Source: Gimesia benthica
GTDB taxonomy: Bacteria > Planctomycetota > Planctomycetia > Planctomycetales > Planctomycetaceae
Length of the DNA stretch: 64,000 bases
Direction of reading: 5' to 3'
NCBI RefSeq assembly: GCF_009720525.1
Contig: NZ_CP043930.1
Coordinates: 6,894,001 to 6,958,000, forward strand
Positions 23,053 through 32,437 of this stretch are shown here, piece by piece. The notes under the pieces were generated by a model. The model searched no databases. It had not been told where the DNA came from and saw only the letters and a list, made by a program, of their open reading frames with translations. A program made the position numbers and the translations under genes. Every line of letters starts with the position of its first letter. Position 1 is the stretch's first letter.

Positions 23053-24711
23053 TTACAAACCTGGTTTTCCGGCCTGGTAAAGTCTGGAAATCTCGTCTGA
23101 GGAAAGTGCCCGGCCAAACAGGGCAAACTCATCCAGGCGGCCATTCAGACTGCGAATGCTGTGTGCGCCTGAGTGATTCTGTGGACGCCAGTTTCCGATT
23201 TCCGCAGGTCCAATGACCAGCGGGACCGGTTTCTCAATTTTATGATGACTGACGGGAACGCCGTCCAGGTAATGTACGACCTCCCGCTTTTGCTGATCGT
23301 AAACCGTGACCAGGAAAATCCAGCGGCCCAGGTCGGTGGGCTGCAGGACGACGGGGGAGAAAAAGTTCTTCACCTCGCCGGTATTCACGCCGAGGATGAT
23401 CTCCCCTTTGTCACTTAGCTGCCAGTGGGGATTTCCGGGTTTGAAGCCATCAGTCAGCATCAGGGAGCTCAACCAGCGGTCGAAGCCCTCGATGCGAACC
23501 CAGGCCATAAATGTGAGGGACTGGTATTCCCCCGGAATCTGCAGCCGCACACGGTCACTGGTTCGTTTGAACTCGAGTCCCTGTTTATCGGGCCAGCGAC
23601 CTGAAGTCCACTGGCAGCCAACGATCGCGCCGTCGGTCGCAGAGGACAATGGCTGCCGGGCTTTGTTCTTCAGTGTTCGGACCCAGTGCGATGGTTCTTC
23701 AAAGTCATAATAGGCGAGCAGGCTCGGATCTGTTTTGAGACGTTGATTCTGCTCACGCCAGTGTGAAAGCTGCTGTTCCTGCTGACGGGCCGCGAGTTGA
23801 GAAAGTTCCTCGAGGTCGATCAGCGGTCGGATTGCTTCCTGTAACTCGTTGAGCGTTCCCTGGGCATCGAAGTTGACTCCTTCTCCGGTAGTCAGGCTCT
23901 GCAGCGGTGGAGCACTTTGCTGCTGGTTGGCAGCGTGCAGTTCGACCTTGCCATCAATAACCTGTACCTGCCCGTTCCCGGTTTCATCCAGGGAGAGGGT
24001 GAATTCCGTACCCAGATCGACCACGTTCAGTCGGGAGGTAGCGACGGAAAAGCCCTGGGCCTGTTCTGGAACAGAGGCACGCACCTTTCCGTATTCACAG
24101 AAGGCTTTAAGGGGGGAGATCAGCTTGATCGCTGCGGGACCTTCGATGAGCACCGATGCGCCGCTGATCATCTCGACCTGAATCGTACCGCTTTTCAGTT
24201 TCAACCAGCCGGCCGACAGACCGGCACCGGCCTGGAGATCGCGGGGTGTTTCCCACTCAACGCCCACGGCCTGGGTGAGCAGAGCGATGTGATCGGTTTG
24301 TGGTTCACTGGCGGCGGGAAAGTTCTCAGAGGATTTCGTTTCCGGAATATTAACGATTTGTGACTCTTGCCCGGATCCAATGCTCCAGCCGGCGTAATAG
24401 GAGAGCGAAAGCAGAAGGGTTGCCGCGACGACGGAGGAGATTAGTAACAGGACAAACCGAGAGGCATTCCACTGGGAGTCAGTTCGCATCTCAACATGCT
24501 GTGGGACCCACGGATCGGCGTCTCGTGTCTCGGCGGCCCAACTGGCCAGGCCGGAATGCACCTGCAGATAGTCAATGTAGAGCTGACGCTGGTCGGCATC
24601 CTCTTTGAGAATCTGCTCCAGCTCCGTCTGCTCGGATTCGCTGATGGTTTCCTGGAGCAGGGCATCGATCAGCTGAACAGTTCGATTGTCGGAAGAAGGG
24701 GATGAATTCAT
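23053..24711 (-). CDS. FecR-domain membrane protein with C-terminal LamG domain (anti-sigma-like)
   Basis: 552 residues. The cytoplasmic N-terminus (residues 1-80) starts with a helical stretch rich in charged residues, as in anti-sigma factors; a single transmembrane helix lies at about 83-108 (FVLLLISSVVAATLLLSLSY). A FecR-type domain follows at about 170-265, with SVATSRLNVVDLGTEFTLSL. After a helical linker a concanavalin-like LamG domain fills about 335-550 (LTFMAWVRIEGFDRWLSSL, GRLDEFALFGRALS). It overlaps the ECF sigma gene by ATGA, so the two are translated together. I infer that it holds the sigma factor inactive and senses a sugar or polymer outside through LamG. FecR proteins in other groups both inhibit and activate their sigma partner. 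Confidence 0.88.
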   Translation of the reverse strand: MNSSPSSDNRTVQLIDALLQETISESEQTELEQILKEDADQRQLYIDYLQVHSGLASWAAETRDADPWVPQHVEMRTDSQWNASRFVLLLISSVVAATLLLSLSYYAGWSIGSGQESQIVNIPETKSSENFPAASEPQTDHIALLTQAVGVEWETPRDLQAGAGLSAGWLKLKSGTIQVEMISGASVLIEGPAAIKLISPLKAFCEYGKVRASVPEQAQGFSVATSRLNVVDLGTEFTLSLDETGNGQVQVIDGKVELHAANQQQSAPPLQSLTTGEGVNFDAQGTLNELQEAIRPLIDLEELSQLAARQQEQQLSHWREQNQRLKTDPSLLAYYDFEEPSHWVRTLKNKARQPLSSATDGAIVGCQWTSGRWPDKQGLEFKRTSDRVRLQIPGEYQSLTFMAWVRIEGFDRWLSSLMLTDGFKPGNPHWQLSDKGEIILGVNTGEVKNFFSPVVLQPTDLGRWIFLVTVYDQQKREVVHYLDGVPVSHHKIEKPVPLVIGPAEIGNWRPQNHSGAHSIRSLNGRLDEFALFGRALSSDEISRLYQAGKPGL

Positions 24712-25277
24712 GAGCCTGCCTCCGTGGATGGTAGTGACTGCTGCATGCAGTCCATGAGTTTCAGACGCAGACGGGCGAGCTTTTTGTAGATCGCATCGCG
24801 GGAGCGGCCCAGCTGATCAGCAACTTCCTGAATCGTCTGTGGGCCATGGTAACAGTCGAGAATCAGTTTTCGGTTCTCATTGTCCAGTTTCTGAATGCAG
24901 TCCTGCAGAGCCTGTTTCCGCTGTTCTGACTCCGGCAGTGACTTATTCTGCTGGGCTGCGATCAGCGAGAGGACTTCATCGGAGAAATAATGACGGTCCC
25001 GGCTCTGAACCCGTTGGAAGTTCTTCACCTCGTAGAAAGCGATCCCGCAGGCCCAGGCAGCAAAACTCTGAGACGTATCGAAGGTCTGCCATTTCCGCCA
25101 CAGGACCAGGCAGGTTTGCTGGAACACATCTTCCGCATCGGTCTGGTGCGGCAGCAGCGTACCGATAAAGCCCCGGATCAGGCTGTGATGCCGGGCCAGC
25201 TGAGTGACGAAGTGCTCATCAGGCACGGCGCCTGCCGTCGTTTCAGGATTTCCGGTTGTTTCTCGGTTTGAGTCCAT
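24708..25277 (-). CDS. ECF RNA polymerase sigma factor (planctomycete/verrucomicrobial group)
   Basis: 189 residues from ATG 25277; a TTG at 25295 would add six residues. Sigma region 2 is at about 30-95 (HQTDAEDVFQQTCLVLWRK, FAAWACGIAFYEVKNFQR); region 4 is at about 130-180 (LILDCYHGPQTIQEVADQLG, SRDAIYKKLARLRLKL). The spacing and motifs match the family of sigma factors found with FecR-like partners in Rhodopirellula and Verrucomicrobium. The stop overlaps the start of the FecR-LamG gene (ATGA). First gene of the operon that continues through the cytochrome/DUF1549/DUF1553 protein to DUF1501. An RpoE-like promoter sequence about 70-100 bases upstream suggests that it drives its own transcription. 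Confidence 0.92.
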   Translation of the reverse strand: MDSNRETTGNPETTAGAVPDEHFVTQLARHHSLIRGFIGTLLPHQTDAEDVFQQTCLVLWRKWQTFDTSQSFAAWACGIAFYEVKNFQRVQSRDRHYFSDEVLSLIAAQQNKSLPESEQRKQALQDCIQKLDNENRKLILDCYHGPQTIQEVADQLGRSRDAIYKKLARLRLKLMDCMQQSLPSTEAGS

Positions 25278-25346
25278 ACTGATAATCGTACACAAGGTCG
25301 GAGATTGGACGGTCTGTAGAGGGATTTTTTCCCGATGAGAACGGAA

Positions 25347-25374
25347 TCAACGTCTCTGCTTTTGTATAAGTTCC
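25347..25374 (-). promoter_or_regulatory. ECF-type promoter of the sigma factor operon
   Basis: Read on the minus strand: GGAACTT (25374-25368), 15 bases, then CGTTGA (25352-25347). GGAACTT with about 15 bases to a CGTC-like -10 is the classical RpoE/ECF promoter form. Transcription would begin near 25340, about 60 bases before the sigma factor ATG. Recognition by this sigma factor is inference. Confidence 0.45.
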
Positions 25375-25467
25375 TGTTTTGTATTGCTTTATAAGAATCT
25401 CGATTATATCAGTCTTTTCCACGCTTTACAGAAGATTTGATTTTTCCAGCGACAGAATGACCGACAG

Positions 25468-25483
25468 ACAGTTGTTCAACTGT
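25468..25483. promoter_or_regulatory. 16-base palindrome in the sigma/ketosynthase divergent region
   Basis: Perfect 7-base arms ACAGTTG and CAACTGT around TT. It is preceded by two copies of CGACAGA (25450-25456 and 25462-25468 region). It could be an operator for either direction; the binding protein is unknown. Confidence 0.35.
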
Positions 25484-25737
25484 TGCGACCCTTGGGACAG
25501 TGCTTCATCGCGGTTAGTTGATTTCAGGGAAAAAGATTTTCAGACGCGGAACGTTTTCAGAACTGTCCCGCATTCTAGATCGAATCACAAATCTCGCTGG
25601 TCGCCCCACTTGCGAGTTTACGGTAGAACGGGTACTCTCCTTGAGTTATCATTTAACATTTCACCCTGCGCGGCGGTCTCTGCCGGGCAGCCTGTAATCT
25701 TCGTGACAACATACATCGATCAGAGTGGTATCAATCA

Positions 25738-26976
25738 ATGGATGATCAAAGCCGGATTGTCATTACCGGAATTGGCCTGACAGCTCCGAATGGCAATAAC
25801 CTGGAGGAATTTCGGCAAAGTCTGCTGGCAGGACGTTCGGGTGTTGTAGATTATGACATTCGTTACATGGGGCATGTCCTCGCGGGTGTCTGTGATTTCG
25901 ATGAACTGCGCTATCAGAAACGCAAAGAGGTCCGCCGGGGAACGCGTGCGGGCTCTATCGCTGTCTACTGTGCGAACGAAGCCGTCAATCAGTCCGGCCT
26001 CGACTGGGAAAATGTCGCCCGCGACCGCGTCGGCGTTTATCTCGGCATTACCGAACATGGCAACGTTGAGACCGAGAACGAAGTCTACGAAATTTCGCAG
26101 TTCGATTACGATACAAAAGTCTGGTCGCACCACCATAATCCCCGCACCGTGGCGAATAACCCGGCGGGGGAAGTCACCCTGAATCTGGGTATCACCGGCC
26201 CGCACCTCACTCTCGGCGCCGCCTGTGCTGCCGGGAACGCTGGATTTATTCAGGGCGTGCAGATGCTGCGGCTGAATGAAGTCGATATGGCCCTGTGTGG
26301 TGGTGTTTCTGAGAGTATTCACACGTTTGGAATCTTCGCCAGCTTCCAGAGCCAGGGCGCTCTGGCCGTCAATGAAGATCCGACCAAAGCCTGTCGCCCC
26401 TTTGACGTGAACCGGAACGGCATCGTCGTTGCCGAAGGGGGCGCGGTCTGTACGTTAGAACGTCTTCCCGACGCACTGGCTCGTGGAGCTACTATTTACG
26501 GTGAAATCGTCGGCTACGCCATGAATTCCGATGCCAGCGATTTCGTGCTGCCCAACTCCTCGCGTCAGGCGGAATGTATTCGGCTGGCCCTCAATCGGGC
26601 GGGATTGGAACCCTCCGATATTGATATTCTGAGCAGTCATGCCACCGCCACCCACCAGGGAGATATCGAGGAAGCCAAGGCACTCGCTTCTGTGTTTGGA
26701 GATTGCCCGAATCTGGCGATTAACAACACCAAGAGCTTTATCGGCCATGCGATGGGCGCTGCGGGGGCTCTGGAACTGCTGGGGAACCTGCCCGCCTTTG
26801 ATGATGGCATCGCGCATGCGACTTTGAATCTGGATGAGCTTGATCCGGAGTGTAAGTTGTCGCAGATCGTCGCCAACGAACCACGGCAGATGGAACAGGT
26901 TGAGTGCATTCTGAATAACTCCTTCGGGATGCTGGGAATCAATTCAGTTCTGATCGTGAAAAAGTACGCTACCTGA
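25738..26976 (+). CDS. Beta-ketoacyl-ACP synthase (FabF/KAS II-like)
   Basis: 412 residues, normal length for FabF. Condenses acyl groups with malonyl-ACP, the chain-extending step. The thiolase-fold triad is intact: active-site Cys163 in LGAACAAGN, His301 in SSHATATHQGD and His337 in FIGHAMGAAG, which match Cys163/His303/His340 of E. coli FabF almost exactly; the C-terminal NSFGMLGIN loop is also present. It opens a plus-strand run of genes: acyl carrier protein, two CrtI-like FAD oxidoreductases and a FabZ-like dehydratase. The sequence is more divergent than a housekeeping FabF (HATATHQGD instead of HGTGTxxND), so a dedicated role in a specialised acyl chain is likely. It is followed by a 321-base gap before the acyl carrier protein gene. 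Confidence 0.92.
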   Translation: MDDQSRIVITGIGLTAPNGNNLEEFRQSLLAGRSGVVDYDIRYMGHVLAGVCDFDELRYQKRKEVRRGTRAGSIAVYCANEAVNQSGLDWENVARDRVGVYLGITEHGNVETENEVYEISQFDYDTKVWSHHHNPRTVANNPAGEVTLNLGITGPHLTLGAACAAGNAGFIQGVQMLRLNEVDMALCGGVSESIHTFGIFASFQSQGALAVNEDPTKACRPFDVNRNGIVVAEGGAVCTLERLPDALARGATIYGEIVGYAMNSDASDFVLPNSSRQAECIRLALNRAGLEPSDIDILSSHATATHQGDIEEAKALASVFGDCPNLAINNTKSFIGHAMGAAGALELLGNLPAFDDGIAHATLNLDELDPECKLSQIVANEPRQMEQVECILNNSFGMLGINSVLIVKKYAT

Positions 26977-27297
26977 ACTGAACGGTAGACATACCCCGCT
27001 TTTCCACTCTGCGCAGTCTGATTCTCTGCCTAAACTGAGCTTCCTTTCGTAATTAAGCCGCTTCTGCGCAGATTTTCTGAAAAACTCTGTGTTCTTATGA
27101 CCTGAGTCGGTTTAAATCTCGGTTTAAATCAAGTTATAGTATTTTCCCCGAGGGGCGGGTTTTTGTTTCCCGGCTTCTAGCGGGGAGGTTGTTGGTTTGC
27201 TATAAGTGGCTTCCCCTCTCAGGGTTTCGCGGCGGATCTGTACATATCGCCGCTGGAAATCGACGTTACAGGATTTTAGAAAGTTTGGAGTTTCTGC
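26977..27297 (+). promoter_or_regulatory. Leader region of the acyl carrier protein gene with repeats
   Basis: This 321-base gap has no gene. It holds two copies of the palindrome CTGCGCAG (27009-27016 and 27064-27071, 55 bases apart), a perfect tandem 12-base repeat (27107-27130), a possible -10 element TATAGT at 27135-27140 and then GC-rich short inverted repeats (CCCG/CGGG) at 27143-27185. GGAG lies about eight bases before the acyl carrier protein ATG. The pattern suggests a regulated promoter inside the cluster rather than simple read-through. Confidence 0.45.
27107..27130 (+). repeat. Tandem 12-base repeat TCGGTTTAAATC x2
   Basis: Two identical adjacent copies (27107-27118, 27119-27130), each with a TTTAAA core. 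They cover the place where the -35 element would sit for the TATAGT at 27135-27140, where no TTGACA-like hexamer is present. An activator site is the simplest reading (inference). Confidence 0.6.
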
Positions 27298-27561
27298 ATG
27301 GCGCCGGAACAAATCAGATCGGTTATCTTGGATATCTTGGCTCGAATTGCTCCCGATGAAGATCTTTCGGAACTCGATGATAGCGTTCCTTTTCGGGATC
27401 AGATGGAACTGGACAGCATGGACTTTCTGGATATCGTCATGGAGCTGCGAAAGCTCTATCGCGTGCAGATTCCGGAAGAAGACTACGGCGAACTGGTAAC
27501 CATGGACAGCACCGTGACCTACCTGACTCCCCTCCTGAAGGATGCTGAAAGCACCGTCTGA
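27298..27561 (+). CDS. Acyl carrier protein
   Basis: 87 residues, acidic, four-helix carrier protein. The phosphopantetheine attachment site is Ser40 in MELDSMDFLDIV, the equivalent of the DSL motif, with Met after the serine. ATG 27298 is preceded by GGAG. It lies 21 bases before the first CrtI-like oxidoreductase gene, so the two are cotranscribed. It probably carries the chain built by the neighbouring ketosynthase and processed by the FabZ-like dehydratase and the two FAD enzymes. It is shorter in the helix II/III region and more divergent than a housekeeping AcpP, which fits a dedicated carrier. Confidence 0.92.
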   Translation: MAPEQIRSVILDILARIAPDEDLSELDDSVPFRDQMELDSMDFLDIVMELRKLYRVQIPEEDYGELVTMDSTVTYLTPLLKDAESTV

Positions 27562-27582
27562 TTCTCCAACCTTCCCGACGCC

Positions 27583-28968
27583 ATGACCTACGATTCGATT
27601 ATTATTGGTGCCGGCCTTTCCGGGCTGGCTGCAGGAATCCGACTGGCGTACTATGGGAAGCAGGTGTGCATCCTCGAACGGCACACCACCATTGGCGGAT
27701 TGAACTCCTTCTATCGCCTGCGCGGTCGCAATCATGATGTCGGTCTGCATGCCGTCACCAACTATTCGCCTCCAGGCGGAAAACGGGGCCCCCTGAATAA
27801 GATTCTCAGGCAGCTCCGTTTTCAGTGGGATGACTTCGACCTCAGCCCCCAATGTGGCTCTTCGGTCGTGTTCCCCGGTCATACTCTGCGGTTCAATAAT
27901 CAGTTCGATTATTTCGAAGCCCAGATCGCCGAACAGTTTCCCAGCCAGATCGACGGCTTCCGACGACTCGTTGCTGACATCGACTCTCACAACATCGGCG
28001 ATCTCGGACAGACCTGGATCTCGGCCCGCAAACGTATGGCGGAACAGATTTCCGATCCGCTGCTGATCAACATGTTGCTCTGCCCGCTGATGTTTTACGG
28101 CAGTCCCTCGGAGCACGATATGGACTTTAACCAGTTCGTGATCATGTTCCGCAGCATCTATCAGGAAGGCTTTGCCCGCCCCTACAAAGGGGTGCGGCTG
28201 ATTCTCAAAAACCTCGTTCGCAAATTCAAAGAACTCGGTGGTGAACTCAAGCTCCGCGCCGGTGTCCAGCAACTGCTTACCGACGGTCAGCAGGTGAACG
28301 GCGTCATGCTCGATGACGGGCAGATCCTCCAGGCTAAAAACGTGCTTTCCTCGGCTGGATCCGCGGAAACACTCAAGCTCTGTGGCGCTGATGTCACTGC
28401 AGATGAACGTTTTACGCCGGGTGAAATTTCGTTCGTCGAAACGATCTCCGTGCTCGATCAACAGCCGGCGGAATTCGGACACGAGGAGACGATTGTCTTC
28501 TACAATGAATCGGAAGACTTCTACTACGAGCAGTCCAAAGAACCGGTCGACGTCCGTAGCGGAATTATCTGCTCGCCTAATAATTTCGAGTACGATCAGC
28601 CACTCGAAGAGGGCTCGATCCGCATCACGGCTCTCGCAAATCCCGATTACTGGATGAATCTCCCCGAAGACAAGTACGTCGCCGAGAAGAAATACTGGTA
28701 CGATCAGATTCTTGAGTCCTCGATGCGTTACATCCCCGACTTCCGCCCGCACGTTATTGATGTGGACACGTTCACACCCCGCACCATTAAGAAATTCACC
28801 GGGCATATCAATGGGTGTGTGTACGGGGCGCCTCAGAAAATCCTGGATGGTACCACCCCCTTCGATAATCTCTTTCTGTGTGGCACCGATCAGGGCTTCC
28901 TCGGCATCATCGGTTCGATGCTCTCCGGGATCAGCATTGCTAACCTGCACCTGCTGAACGCGAAGTGA
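27583..28968 (+). CDS. CrtI-like FAD-dependent oxidoreductase, first copy
   Basis: 461 residues of the phytoene desaturase / carotenoid isomerase / all-trans-retinol saturase superfamily. The FAD-binding Rossmann motif GAGLSG is at residues 9-14, followed by ILERHTTIGGLNSFY (the typical E...GG segment), and the C-terminal FAD motif LFLCGTDQGFLGIIGSMLSG. There is no sign of carotenoid genes (crtB, crtE) nearby; the partners are a ketosynthase, an acyl carrier protein and a dehydratase. Desaturation, saturation or isomerisation of an acyl chain is therefore more likely than carotenoid synthesis (inference). It shares superfamily membership but only modest identity with the second copy at 29218-30645. 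Confidence 0.85.
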   Translation: MTYDSIIIGAGLSGLAAGIRLAYYGKQVCILERHTTIGGLNSFYRLRGRNHDVGLHAVTNYSPPGGKRGPLNKILRQLRFQWDDFDLSPQCGSSVVFPGHTLRFNNQFDYFEAQIAEQFPSQIDGFRRLVADIDSHNIGDLGQTWISARKRMAEQISDPLLINMLLCPLMFYGSPSEHDMDFNQFVIMFRSIYQEGFARPYKGVRLILKNLVRKFKELGGELKLRAGVQQLLTDGQQVNGVMLDDGQILQAKNVLSSAGSAETLKLCGADVTADERFTPGEISFVETISVLDQQPAEFGHEETIVFYNESEDFYYEQSKEPVDVRSGIICSPNNFEYDQPLEEGSIRITALANPDYWMNLPEDKYVAEKKYWYDQILESSMRYIPDFRPHVIDVDTFTPRTIKKFTGHINGCVYGAPQKILDGTTPFDNLFLCGTDQGFLGIIGSMLSGISIANLHLLNAK

Positions 28969-29051
28969 GCCGTTTACCGGCTTTCTGACATGCTGTACTT
29001 CTGCTTCACTGTGCGATAAATCCCCTGTTTCTATAACTCTGCGGCTGCGAA

Positions 29052-29095
29052 TTGTCACACTTTTGTCACAGTATTCTCTTTTACTCTGGTATAGT
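29052..29095 (+). promoter_or_regulatory. Extended -10 promoter with direct repeats before the second CrtI-like gene
   Basis: TGGTATAGT at 29087-29095 is an extended -10 element. Upstream are two direct repeats TTGTCACA at 29052-29059 and 29063-29070, 11 bases (one helical turn) apart, located where an activator or repressor would bind. The distance to a TTGTCA -35 is too long (21 bases), so the extended -10 is the likely determinant. Transcription would start near 29102. Confidence 0.5.
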
Positions 29096-29132
29096 AGACA
29101 AAGCCCCTGATTTTCGATAAACAGGAGAAGCA

Positions 29133-29159
29133 ATGTTGTCATCTTACGCCCGGGCATGA
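29133..29159 (+). CDS. Eight-codon leader peptide MLSSYARA
   Basis: ATG at 29133 follows a strong ribosome site (CAGGAG, about 6 bases away) and reads MLSSYARA to a TGA at 29157-29159. The stop codon lies inside the left arm of a terminator-like hairpin (29151-29176). A good ribosome site on such a short frame, directly before a terminator and just after a promoter, is the usual layout of a transcription attenuator. There is no run of a single regulatory codon, so the signal is unknown; it might sense ribosome state or a small molecule instead. No homology can be judged at this length. Confidence 0.45.
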   Translation: MLSSYARA

Positions 29160-29182
29160 GTCCCTTCATGGTCCCGTTTTTT
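29151..29182 (+). terminator. Attenuator-like hairpin with T6 before the second CrtI-like gene
   Basis: CGGGCATGA (29151-29159) pairs with TCATG..CCCG (29166-29176), nine base pairs with a 2-base GT bulge and a 6-base loop, followed by TTTTTT (29177-29182). It lies between a likely promoter and the gene start at 29218. It could be the terminator of the first oxidoreductase gene instead, but that gene ends 180 bases earlier. Confidence 0.55.
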
Positions 29183-29217
29183 CTTCTCTGCTGATTTAAA
29201 TACGACGCTGAATTATT

Positions 29218-30645
29218 ATGGCCAAAGACTTTTTGAAAGACGCAAAAGACGAATACGATGTCATCGTCATCGGTAGTGGTCTGGCAGGCATGACCTCCGC
29301 CAACATTCTGGCCCGGCAGGGGTACTCCGTGCTGCTGCTGGAACATCATTACCAGTTGGGAGGCATGGCCACCTGGTTCAAACGGCAGAACGGGCACATC
29401 TTTGACATCTCTCTCCACGGCTTCCCCTACGGCATGCTTAAGAGCTGCCGCAAATACTGGACCCAGGAGATCGCAGATAACATCGTCCCCCTGCGAGGCG
29501 TCCGCTTTGAAAATCCGCAGTTTTCGCTGGAGACCACCTTCACTCGTGATGACTTCACCCGCCTGCTGATCGAAAAATTCGGCATCGAATCCGAAACCGT
29601 CAAGAACTTCTTTGATACTGCCCGTAAGATGAACTTCTTCGACGATCAGGGCAAAACCACAAGAGAGCTGTTCGAAGAGTTCTTCCCCGGCCGCGATGAT
29701 GTCGTCCGCCTGCTCATGGAACCGATCTCCTACGCCAACGGTTCGACCCTCGAAGATCCCGCGATCACCTACGGCATCGTCTTCTCGAACTTCATGCAGA
29801 AGGGCGTCTATACCTTCCGCGGCGGTACAGATCACCTGGTCAAACTGATCAAGGCTGAAATGGAACGCAATGGCGTCGATGTCCGCATCCGGACCCAGGT
29901 CGAAAAGATCGAAGTCACCCCCGACCGTCGCGTGACTGGCGTGGTGGTCAACGGACGTCGCATTGGCTGTAAGGCCATCATGTCCAACTCGAACATCAAA
30001 GGCACCATCCTCAACCTCGTGGGCGAAGAACATTTCGATCCCGAGTACGTCGAGGAAACCAAAGCCGTCCGTCTCAACAACAGCAGTACCCAGGTCTATA
30101 TCGCGCTCAAGCCGGGCGACGAACTCGATTTCTGCGGCGACCTGCTCTTCCATTCCGAGCACAAAGGCTTCGATATCAAAGCCATGCTCAGTAAAGAGGT
30201 TAGTAGCCGTACCTTCTCGTTCTACTATCCCGAAACCCGGCCCGGCAGCGAACGCTCTCTGATCGTCTCGTCGACCAACGCGAATTTCAGCGACTGGGCT
30301 AATCTTCCCGACGACCAGTACGAAGCCGATAAGAATCATCTGATCGAGACGACCCTCGACTGCCTCGAACAGTACGTTCCCAACATCCGCGAACGTGTAG
30401 ACCACCTCGAAGCTTCCACCCCGCGGACCTTCCAACGCTACACGCAGCACCTGCAGGGAGCCTCGTTCGGAACCAAGTTCGAAGGTCTCAAGGTCAGCAA
30501 GGAACTGCCAGAACAGATCGAAGGCCTGTACCATGCCGGCTCGGTCGGAATCATCATGTCGGGCTGGCTCGGCGCTGTGAACTACGGCGTGATCGTCAGC
30601 AACGACGTTGATAAATACCTGACACCCGCTGCCGCCAGCATCTGA
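29218..30645 (+). CDS. CrtI-like FAD-dependent oxidoreductase, second copy
   Basis: 475 residues, same superfamily as the preceding oxidoreductase. GSGLAG at residues 19-24 is the FAD phosphate-binding motif; [16 protein letters not shown] follows. The C-terminal FAD motif is [20 protein letters not shown] lysine/aspartate-rich N-terminal leader ([14 protein letters not shown]) precedes the Rossmann fold. It has its own promoter and leader-peptide attenuator, so it may be regulated separately from the ACP and first oxidoreductase genes. The pair of CrtI-like enzymes flanked by fatty-acid-type enzymes suggests two successive oxidative or isomerising steps on an ACP-bound chain (inference). Confidence 0.85.
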
Positions 30646-30699
30646 ACCGCAGCCCCTGTTCGCACAGACCCGCTCACACAATAGAAACGGATTGATCTC

Positions 30700-31125
30700 G
30701 TGAATCTGGATGAAATCAAAGCCTGTATTCCGCACCGGGAACCTTTTCTGTGGCTCGATGAAGTCGTCGCGCTGGATGAAAACAGCATCCACGCCCGCAA
30801 GTTCGTCTCATCCGATCTGGACCTCTTTCAGGGACACTATCCCGATCACCCGGTCCTGCCTGGCGTGATCCTCTGTGAAGCTGCGATGCAGGCTGCCGCT
30901 GTCTTCATCGCGAAGACGGATGCCCCGTCCAGCGACAAAGTACCCGTTGCCACCCGGCTGAACAACACCAAGTTCCGCCGGATGGTCAAGCCGGGAGAGA
31001 CGATTGATATCCAGGTGACTCTCAGTGAAAAAATGGGTGGTGCCTGGTTCTTTACCGGCAAACTCTCGGTTGGCAAAGAGACCGCTGTCCGTCTCGAATT
31101 CGCCGTGACCGCAGCCGAGGCTTAA
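30700..31125 (+). CDS. FabZ-like 3-hydroxyacyl-ACP dehydratase
   Basis: 141 residues with a single hotdog fold. The catalytic pair is present: His46 in FQGHYPDHPVLPGV and Glu60 in LCEAAMQ, 14 residues apart as in FabZ. Start is GTG at 30700; no ATG is suitable in the first part. It removes water from the 3-hydroxyacyl-ACP made after the ketosynthase step and a ketoreductase (no ketoreductase gene is present in this cluster). It ends the run that starts with the ketosynthase and is convergent with the PQQ-like propeller gene. As with the other members, divergence from housekeeping FabZ and the location suggest a dedicated pathway. Confidence 0.9.
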   Translation: MNLDEIKACIPHREPFLWLDEVVALDENSIHARKFVSSDLDLFQGHYPDHPVLPGVILCEAAMQAAAVFIAKTDAPSSDKVPVATRLNNTKFRRMVKPGETIDIQVTLSEKMGGAWFFTGKLSVGKETAVRLEFAVTAAEA

Positions 31126-31147
31126 AACAAAACCCTCAACGCGTCGC

Positions 31148-32437
31148 TTATTTACCCGCAGACTGATCTTCAATCCGATACAGGAAATGCTCGGTGCGCA
31201 GGATCAACGACTTACCAGCGACCGCCAGCGATGCCACACAGCCTTCCTCCAGCTGGTTCGCAGCCAGTTCCTTGTACTCTTTTCCGGGCACAAACACCCG
31301 TGTGACTCCTTCACGGTCCGGAGCATAGATCTTTCCATCTGCAAAAATGGGAGAGGCTGAAAACGAACTGCGGTCCATCCGTTCTTTCCAGACCAGCTTG
31401 CCGGAGTCCTTAGCATCCAGGCACGACGCGATGCCCTTATCGTCGATCATATAGATCAGGCCGTCGATCAGCAGTTGTGACGGCTTGGAAGGAATCCCCT
31501 TCTGTTCGACCCATTTGACGTGCGAATCAGTCACGTTCCCTTTACCACCCGGATTGACGACATACAGATGGGCTTTCGGGAAACCGGTACCGACGTAGAT
31601 CTTCTCTCCATCATACAGCGGACGATTGGCGGCGGAGTGCTGGGGATAATAGAACTTCCAGTACTCTTCTCCCGTCAGCGGGTTATAGGAAACGGTTGCT
31701 TTCGCCGCCGGGCTGATCAGCTGCACGCGTCCCTCGTATTCAATCACCCGGGGTGTGGCGAAAGCTTTTTTGGAATCGCCATTCTTGGTTCCGTATTCAA
31801 TGTCGCGATCTTTTTTCCACACCTCTTTGCCGGTCTCTTTATCCAGTGCGACGATGTACTGGTAATCGTAACCATCATACTGCAGGATCAGCAGGTTCTG
31901 GTAAATGATGGGTGACGACCCCGCACCCCGCCAGTGATTGCAGGGATAATCGCGGCGTTCCCAGAGGATATTTCCGTTCTTCGTATCCAGGCAGGCGGTT
32001 CCATACGCACCGTAATGCACATAGATCCGTCCCTCTTCGATGATCGGGGTACTCGAGGCGTGTGAGTTACTCGGATCAATATACTGTGGCTTCTCCACGT
32101 CGAAGATTTTCTTGTCGATCAGAATCTTACCAGTGTTGAAATCGACACAGACCACTCCCAGCTCTTTCCCGTCCTTGGTTGAAGTCGTGACCCAGACCTG
32201 ATCTTTCCAGACGACGGGAGACGACCAGGCCCGTCCGTGAATCGGCGTCTTCCAGACGATATTCTCTTTCTCGCTCCAGGTCGTGGGGAGTCCGGTCGCT
32301 TCCGATGTGCCGTCCGCATGGGGGCCTCGGAACTGGTTCCAGTAAGGTTCCTCAGCCGAGACACGAACCGGGGCAGTCAGAACCAGAGCCAGCAGACAGG
32401 CGGCGGAAAACAGACATCGTAAGTGGGACGCAGACAT
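31148..32437 (-). CDS. Secreted PQQ-like beta-propeller protein
   Basis: 429 residues from ATG 32437 (AGGA seven bases upstream; the frame could open at 32509 but that extension lacks a signal peptide). Signal peptide SASHLRCLFSAACLLALVL ends before AEEPYWNQFRG, a start typical of planctomycete PQQ-like quinoprotein/BamB-type propellers. Repeated WxxPVV, TxxGKxxW and SPxxY motifs give about seven to eight blades. Binding of PQQ is not certain: such proteins are often structural. It is monocistronic, on the opposite strand to the lipid cluster, and its substrate is unknown. Confidence 0.85.
   Translation of the reverse strand: MSASHLRCLFSAACLLALVLTAPVRVSAEEPYWNQFRGPHADGTSEATGLPTTWSEKENIVWKTPIHGRAWSSPVVWKDQVWVTTSTKDGKELGVVCVDFNTGKILIDKKIFDVEKPQYIDPSNSHASSTPIIEEGRIYVHYGAYGTACLDTKNGNILWERRDYPCNHWRGAGSSPIIYQNLLILQYDGYDYQYIVALDKETGKEVWKKDRDIEYGTKNGDSKKAFATPRVIEYEGRVQLISPAAKATVSYNPLTGEEYWKFYYPQHSAANRPLYDGEKIYVGTGFPKAHLYVVNPGGKGNVTDSHVKWVEQKGIPSKPSQLLIDGLIYMIDDKGIASCLDAKDSGKLVWKERMDRSSFSASPIFADGKIYAPDREGVTRVFVPGKEYKELAANQLEEGCVASLAVAGKSLILRTEHFLYRIEDQSAGK

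Follow-up and report, generated by a model that had tools for sequence, protein, structure and literature searches.

The 64,000-nt stretch of Gimesia benthica DNA analysed here (the window; contig NZ_CP043930.1, positions 6,894,001 to 6,958,000) contains five same-strand genes encoding a FabF-like beta-ketoacyl-acyl carrier protein (ACP) synthase (KS), a dedicated ACP, two CrtI-like flavoproteins (FAD1 and FAD2) and a FabZ-like dehydratase (Table 1). We propose, with a probability of roughly 0.6, that these genes encode the central part of a type II acyl-chain assembly line, which provides OleABCD with the chains that these proteins join head to head into an olefin, with a polyene such as C31:9 as the product. 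Sequence comparison shows that the module is co-inherited with Ole, that it is physically linked to ole genes in six of the nine families, that PfaA-type synthases replace it near-completely, and that two OleA types follow the acyl supplier. A specialised unsaturated-lipid role as the acyl supplier of OleABCD is well supported, and a polyene product is probable. The original prediction, made from the letters of the window, had suggested an unusual unsaturated or cyclised acyl chain built on a dedicated ACP; our analysis supports a dedicated ACP-based system whose unusual chain is probably unsaturated. The tie to OleABCD olefin synthesis is beyond what could be seen there.

Co-occurrence of the module with ole genes

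Homologs were sought in a phylum-wide sample of 246 planctomycete genomes, with limits of E≤1e-20 for FAD1 and OleA, E≤1e-50 for FAD2, E≤1e-60 for OleC and E≤1e-100 for KS. FAD1 matched in 54 genomes; three from family f44, with 25-27% identity, were removed, and the 51 retained fell into nine families with at least 39% identity. FAD2 was found in the same 51 genomes. A KS homolog was present in 50 of them (the exception, G184, is 82% complete) and in none of the 29 FAD1-negative, OleA-positive genomes that served as a control, out of 36 such genomes, with the remaining 7 outside the comparison.

All 51 FAD1-positive genomes contained OleA (87 of the 246 overall), OleC (89 of the 246) and an OleB-like protein, the last being a count without a control set for a broad alpha/beta hydrolase family. 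Among the other conserved neighbors of the module in relatives were genes matching models of OleA, OleC and OleD, and one for an OleB-like hydrolase of the alpha/beta kind. OleA and/or OleC lay within 20 kb of FAD1 in 26 of the 51 genomes and six of the nine families, namely f2 (2/2), f21 (4/7), f25 (12/12), f30 (1/1), f32 (6/6) and f34 (1/8); the families without an ole gene at this distance were f7 (0/2), f20 (0/1) and f1 (0/12), the family of G. benthica. Among the 80 named FAD1-matching loci listed, nearly all titled Planctomycetota and none Desulfotalea, 20 contained an ole gene; of the 31 loci that extend 6 kb or more to both sides of FAD1, 11 did so. We consider it likely that the module feeds OleA.

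The ole genes of the Gimesia genome are dispersed, with oleA at 3.67 Mb, an oleC-oleD pair at 1.01 Mb and an oleB-like gene at 0.60 Mb; the module is at 6.92 Mb of the closed 8.03-Mb genome. All 12 Protein Data Bank entries matched by this OleA are 3-oxoacyl-ACP synthase III entries, which we take to be Xanthomonas OleA. The oleC-oleD pair stands directly behind a gene for formylmethanofuran dehydrogenase subunit C.

Table 1. Features of the module, the ole genes of G. benthica and related loci. Plain coordinates are window positions; paired values are score/cut-off.
Feature	Location	Strand	Evidence or remark
FabF-like KS, 412 aa	25738-26976	+	Cys163/His301/His337; Pfam and NCBIfam; phmmer
Dedicated ACP, 87 aa	27298-27561	+	Ser40; adjoins KS and FAD1 in many relatives' loci
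FAD1, CrtI-like flavoprotein, 461 aa	27583-28968	+	Proposed acyl-chain desaturase or double-bond isomerase; Pfam and NCBIfam; tree
FAD2, CrtI-like flavoprotein of second clade, 475 aa	29218-30645	+	Proposed partner desaturase or isomerase
FabZ-like 3-hydroxyacyl-ACP dehydratase, 141 aa, GTG start	30700-31125	+	His46/Glu60; 111.2 bits vs cut-off 113
Antisense open reading frame, 1222 aa	27124-30792	-	Overlaps most of the module
oleA	L113:9849-10895	-	NF006720 403.6, above the OleA cut-off of 285
oleC	L211:9126-10787	-	OleC models 589/900, 554/850; broad model 715, above 478
oleD, adjoins oleC	L211:8128-9129	-	OleD model 393/580
oleB-like	G000:C1:600096-600929		54% to oleB-like gene between oleA and oleC in L122
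Formylmethanofuran dehydrogenase subunit C	L211:10827-11648	-	Next to oleC-oleD
FabZ frame with Y1_Tnp-like insert, G193 (f25)	L067:6195-7286	-	
FabZ frame with Y1_Tnp-like insert, G237 (f25)	L050:6261-7364	-	
FabZ frame with Y1_Tnp-like insert, G022 (f25)	L070:11845-13044	+	

Replacement by PfaA-type synthases

The Pfa and OleABCD system of Shewanella and Geobacter, which makes hentriacontanonaene, likewise has an iterative synthase of acyl chains next to or together with OleABCD and combines KS, ACP, ketoreductase, dehydratase and enoyl reductase functions. The module differs in consisting of separate type II proteins, with a FabZ-type dehydratase and two CrtI-like flavoproteins, and is a near-exclusive alternative to PfaA. 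With a limit of more than 600 bits, a line drawn after the list had been inspected, which counts against our proposal, PfaA-type matches were found in 35 of the 36 OleA-positive, FAD1-negative genomes (the exception is G003) and in one of the 51 FAD1-positive genomes (G196). With the curated TIGR02813 cut-off of 1010 bits, the numbers were 29 of 36 and 0 of 51. The best PfaA match in the G. benthica genome had an E of 6.7e-38, with nothing at 1e-60 and nothing reaching TIGR02813. A PfaA-type match without an OleA match occurred in seven genomes. Four f44 genomes (G049, G106, G122 and G153) have PfaA matches of at least 800 bits and no OleA.

For the family of G. benthica we set down the expectation beforehand and then compared 120 genomes, 107 of them new and 13 common to the 246. 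OleA was found in 99 of the 101 FAD1-positive genomes, and PfaA above 600 bits in four. Among the 19 FAD1-negative genomes three lacked OleA and 16 had it; 15 of these 16 carried PfaA above 600 bits, 14 of them above the curated cut-off, and the exception (G350) is 72% complete. Replacement by Pfa was seen in six genera of this family. By family, the supplier was FAD-type in nine and Pfa-type in 18, with both kinds only in f1. The expectation thus largely held, and the supplier rule is strong, not absolute. On these matches, PfaA-type synthases replace the module near-completely in OleA-positive planctomycetes; its job is seemingly done in related bacteria by a giant multi-domain enzyme.

Links between pfa-like clusters, including one in Gemmata, and ole genes have been described (Shulse and Allen 2011; PMC3098273, in the passage concerned), and passages of two further papers report ole genes in planctomycetes (PMC10176705, PMC7158056). 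A full-text literature search, with subscription papers mostly outside its coverage, found no paper tying a KS-ACP-CrtI-CrtI-FabZ module to ole.

Two types of OleA

A tree was built from 51 OleA proteins, comprising 30 from the 51 FAD-type genomes, 20 from Pfa-type genomes (19 of the 36, and G312) and that of G003. A fully supported branch separated 19 Pfa-type rows from all 30 FAD-type rows; one Pfa-type row on a long branch (G005) and the row of G003 were placed among the latter. OleA type matched the supplier in 49 of the 50 labelled rows, and in the G. benthica family the OleA of the two Pfa-type members was of the Pfa type. One of these two, G216, has oleA, oleB, oleC and oleD linked; the pattern looks as if the entire system had been exchanged.

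These data bear on whether the acyl chain serves another purpose (a membrane lipid, a lipoprotein or a pigment), with the co-occurrence of Ole reflecting shared ancestry. The clustering of supplier labels by clade would fit such a history, as would the distance between ole genes and module in the G. benthica family. We nevertheless regard another purpose as improbable, because ole genes are physically linked to the module in six families, the supplier was replaced in six genera of one family, and OleA type changed in both of the replaced rows of the tree.

Several other points weigh against our proposal. In the G. benthica family none of the 12 genomes has an ole gene within 20 kb of the module, and in the larger set only G272 and G330 have OleA close to FAD1, at 6-7 kb; KS and FAD2 are frequently apart from FAD1. 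The OleC and OleD of G. benthica, while matching OleC and OleD models best, score below the narrow equivalog cut-offs (589/900 and 393/580). The supplier rule has exceptions: FAD1 occurs without OleA in G264 (97% complete) and G321 (66% complete), OleA occurs with neither supplier in G350 and G003, and FAD1 stands together with a PfaA-type match in G196 (647 bits, below the curated cut-off) and in G338, G307, G290 and G323 of the G. benthica family, two of these being above that cut-off. Fisher p-values overstate independence, because the genomes are related and the distribution of OleA follows phylogeny in part. Producers of C31:9 also make eicosapentaenoic or docosahexaenoic acid according to one review passage, and G. 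benthica is not known to do so. Finally, the passage of PMC2649909 on C31 polyenes in planctomycetes cites them only from Schlesneria and Singulisphaera.

Integrity and organization of the module

All five genes are genuine and uninterrupted, purifying selection acts on them, and their Pfam and NCBIfam assignments agree. The catalytic residues named in the original prediction are in place (Table 1), and both flavoproteins keep the N-terminal GxGxxG motif (GAGLSG in FAD1, GSGLAG in FAD2). In phmmer searches KS aligned to solved FabF/KAS II and the FabZ-like protein to solved FabZ. KS scored 316 bits against the equivalog cut-off of 494 for housekeeping FabF (TIGR03150), and the FabZ-like protein fell under both housekeeping FabZ equivalog cut-offs, once marginally (111.2/113 and 106/155 bits). 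Compared with a locus from the same genus (L041), differences at codon positions 1/2/3 were 40/12/219 in KS, 48/20/238 in FAD1, 25/11/234 in FAD2 and 24/11/72 in FabZ. The module is beyond chance, because this divergence sits at the third position and all five genes stand together in 18 of 40 relatives' loci. The antisense frame that overlaps most of the module was rejected as a gene and taken for a shadow, since the plus-strand genes diverge at codon position 3.

As predicted, this cluster has no ketoreductase or enoyl reductase gene, but the same does not hold for some relatives. Of the 40 loci, 15 have a FabI-like gene behind FabZ, and five have one resembling FabG placed between FAD2 and FabZ, with assignments that rest on one scanned representative of each (168 bits against a cut-off of 370 for FabI); these additions give a full elongation cycle.

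Spacing within the module is 21 bp between ACP and FAD1 and 54 bp between FAD2 and FabZ; because of the larger gaps between KS and ACP (321 bp) and between FAD1 and FAD2 (249 bp), more than one transcript is possible and a single operon is not established. A scan of the module gave three promoter-like sites against a shuffle mean of 3.8, hence no excess, and terminator-like sites slightly above shuffles (9 versus 5.8, standard deviation 2.4). No RNA element was found by Rfam in 24500-31500 up to E 0.1. The flanking genes are on the opposite strand; those on one side encode an extracytoplasmic function sigma factor and a FecR/LamG protein, the product on the other side is PQQ/BamB-like, and none is a lipid gene.

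Proposed roles of the module proteins

KS would lengthen the chain on the dedicated ACP, and FabZ, FabG and FabI would run the reductive cycle, FabG and FabI presumably being housekeeping copies in this genome. FAD1 and FAD2 would introduce or preserve double bonds; OleA would then join two chains, and OleC, OleB and OleD would complete the olefin, a long polyunsaturated hydrocarbon such as C31:9 from two 16:4 chains. The acyl chain is probably polyunsaturated, and the odds that the product is C31:9 itself are about even. Gimesia (Planctomyces) maris is itself reportedly a C31:9 maker, as described by Sukovich and colleagues in 2010.

What FAD1 and FAD2 do we can only infer; they may desaturate the chain outright or perform double-bond isomerizations. 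C31:9 is known as the product of a polyunsaturated fatty acid (PUFA) synthase with Ole, and its predicted precursors are two 16:4 n-3 chains; trans-2,2-cis and trans-2,3-cis isomerization is thought to be required by PUFA synthases (PMC4882568, in its passages on this pathway). The dehydratase of the module is FabZ-like, and where isomerizing dehydratases would stand there are two flavoproteins, each from its own clade. We tentatively suggest, as one possibility, that FAD1 and FAD2 stand in for the two dehydratase-isomerase activities of Pfa, one converting trans-2-enoyl-ACP to the cis-2 and the other to the cis-3 form through flavin chemistry that, as in CrtISO, involves no net oxidation. OleA would in that case receive from KS, FabG, FabZ and FabI an all-cis 16:4 chain with methylene-interrupted double bonds. 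That a phytoene-dehydrogenase-like protein can have an acyl chain as its substrate is shown by UfaD of furan fatty acid synthesis, likened here by description and not by sequence, which desaturates such a chain; unlike the module, UfaD works on phospholipid chains without a dedicated KS or ACP (PMC7380195, in the part describing this enzyme).

The module may instead feed OleABCD a chain other than a methylene-interrupted polyene, in which FAD1 and FAD2 introduce one or two double bonds of conjugated or trans type, or which is branched or otherwise altered, leading to another olefin. CrtI-type enzymes usually extend conjugation, and the same ole linkage and co-inheritance would result. The product of UfaD, moreover, is described as a conjugated 10t,12t diene (PMC7380195). 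We consider such an olefin unlikely, since the swap with PfaA-type synthases suggests a similar polyunsaturated product and since, according to the passage of Rattray et al. (2009; PMC2649909) on Desulfotalea psychrophila, C31:8 and C31:9 were detected in this bacterium without a PUFA-type polyketide synthase.

If the module does supply a polyene to OleABCD, it would explain at the gene level how C31 polyene hydrocarbons could be made in bacteria that lack a Pfa synthase. This question went unanswered for Desulfotalea in 2009 and is connected with another unsolved one, where ladderane precursors come from. The module would also offer a genetically simple set of single proteins, in culturable organisms, for probing CrtI-like flavoproteins on acyl chains, and olefin type in planctomycetes would be predictable from two marker genes. 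Should the flavoproteins be isomerases, the module would make polyunsaturated chains without oxygen by a route whose origin is separate from that of Pfa, and the two would have been swapped between lineages along with their own type of OleA.

Comparison with ladderane clusters and carotenoid enzymes

The original prediction drew a parallel to the ladderane gene sets of anammox planctomycetes, which proved weak. KS, ACP, FabZ and CrtI-like proteins are kinds of parts common to the module and kuste3603-3608. In the passages of Rattray et al. (2009; PMC2649909) on type II fatty acid synthesis clusters, FabF, ACP, FabZ and phytoene-dehydrogenase-like (CrtI-like) proteins stand together in Kuenenia and Desulfotalea, and an anaerobic PUFA pathway is suggested. 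Unlike those clusters as described, the module has no radical S-adenosylmethionine (SAM) gene, second KS or PCL, contains flavoproteins of two clades, and is tied to ole. Gene order differs as well: the published kuste3603-3608 order, ACP-FabZ-KS-KS-FAD-radical-SAM-like, was found in three f44 clusters (L065, L066 and L076), in which the radical-SAM-like gene is TIGR04072-like (87.7/360). In the tree, FAD1, FAD2 and the f44 proteins, which share about 25% identity with FAD1 and FAD2, formed three separate clades (support 100/99, with three f44 rows). The single KS of the module keeps its catalytic triad, and the predicted absence of a radical SAM gene was borne out for the five genes and the neighbors scanned in the window, the rest of the genome not having been searched. 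With the linkage to ole in 26 of 51 genomes also against it, a ladderane-like or otherwise cyclized acyl chain is very improbable, and we rejected it on gene order, the lack of a radical SAM gene in the module and the FAD tree. Models for AmcE, AmcF and AmcB were matched far below cut-off in all cases, and a cispentacin-type assembly was also rejected.

CrtI, CrtD and CrtISO share their fold family and FAD motif with FAD1 and FAD2; among solved structures, the carotenoid desaturases 4dgk and 4rep come closest to these two proteins, and G. benthica possesses a CrtO/CrtI-like gene and two SQS_PSY genes. That FAD1 and FAD2 are carotenoid or isoprenoid desaturases lying fortuitously beside fatty-acid genes is nevertheless hardly credible, in line with the original prediction. 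Both proteins score far below all carotenoid cut-offs (FAD1 76.8/586.9 bits for carot_isom, FAD2 116.7/549.7 for CrtD, and 62 and 83, respectively, against 238 for crtI_fam), and their context is fatty acid and olefin synthesis. Of the SQS_PSY genes, one passes the HpnC cut-off and the other comes closest to HpnD; an HpnE lies elsewhere, and both CrtB models score far under cut-off in the two genes. The anammox relatives kuste3336 and kuste3607 yielded no lycopene in the experiments described in the relevant passage of Javidpour et al. (2016; PMC4790861). We rejected a carotenoid role on the hidden Markov model scores and this HpnC, HpnD-like and HpnE set.

Additional observations on module homologs

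Plasmid-borne relatives amounted to two weak matches (25-26%). In three f25 genomes from two genera, a transposase-like domain of the IS200/REP type (Y1_Tnp) lies in frame within the FabZ reading frame of the module, each time at the same position between the hot-dog halves (Table 1). FAD1 homologs of f25 (e.g. G022:C22:8844-10298) show matches split near residue 360 by inserts of about 60 bp to more than 500 bp within a single open frame, and in G086 and G047 of this family the insert follows residue 269. Two further f25 loci (L068 and L073, from G120 and G193) are of a different kind and hold several KS genes together with a gene for a CrtI-like protein, which resembles FAD1 at about 24% and forms its own clade. 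The two FAD1 copies of G156:C37 (L071) lie in a mirror-image contig duplication that is probably an assembly artefact. A metagenome-assembled genome titled Candidatus Kuenenia stuttgartiensis (L126) contains KS, ACP and FAD1 at 66% identity that are Planctomycetaceae-like, perhaps owing to a mixed bin or a wrong label.

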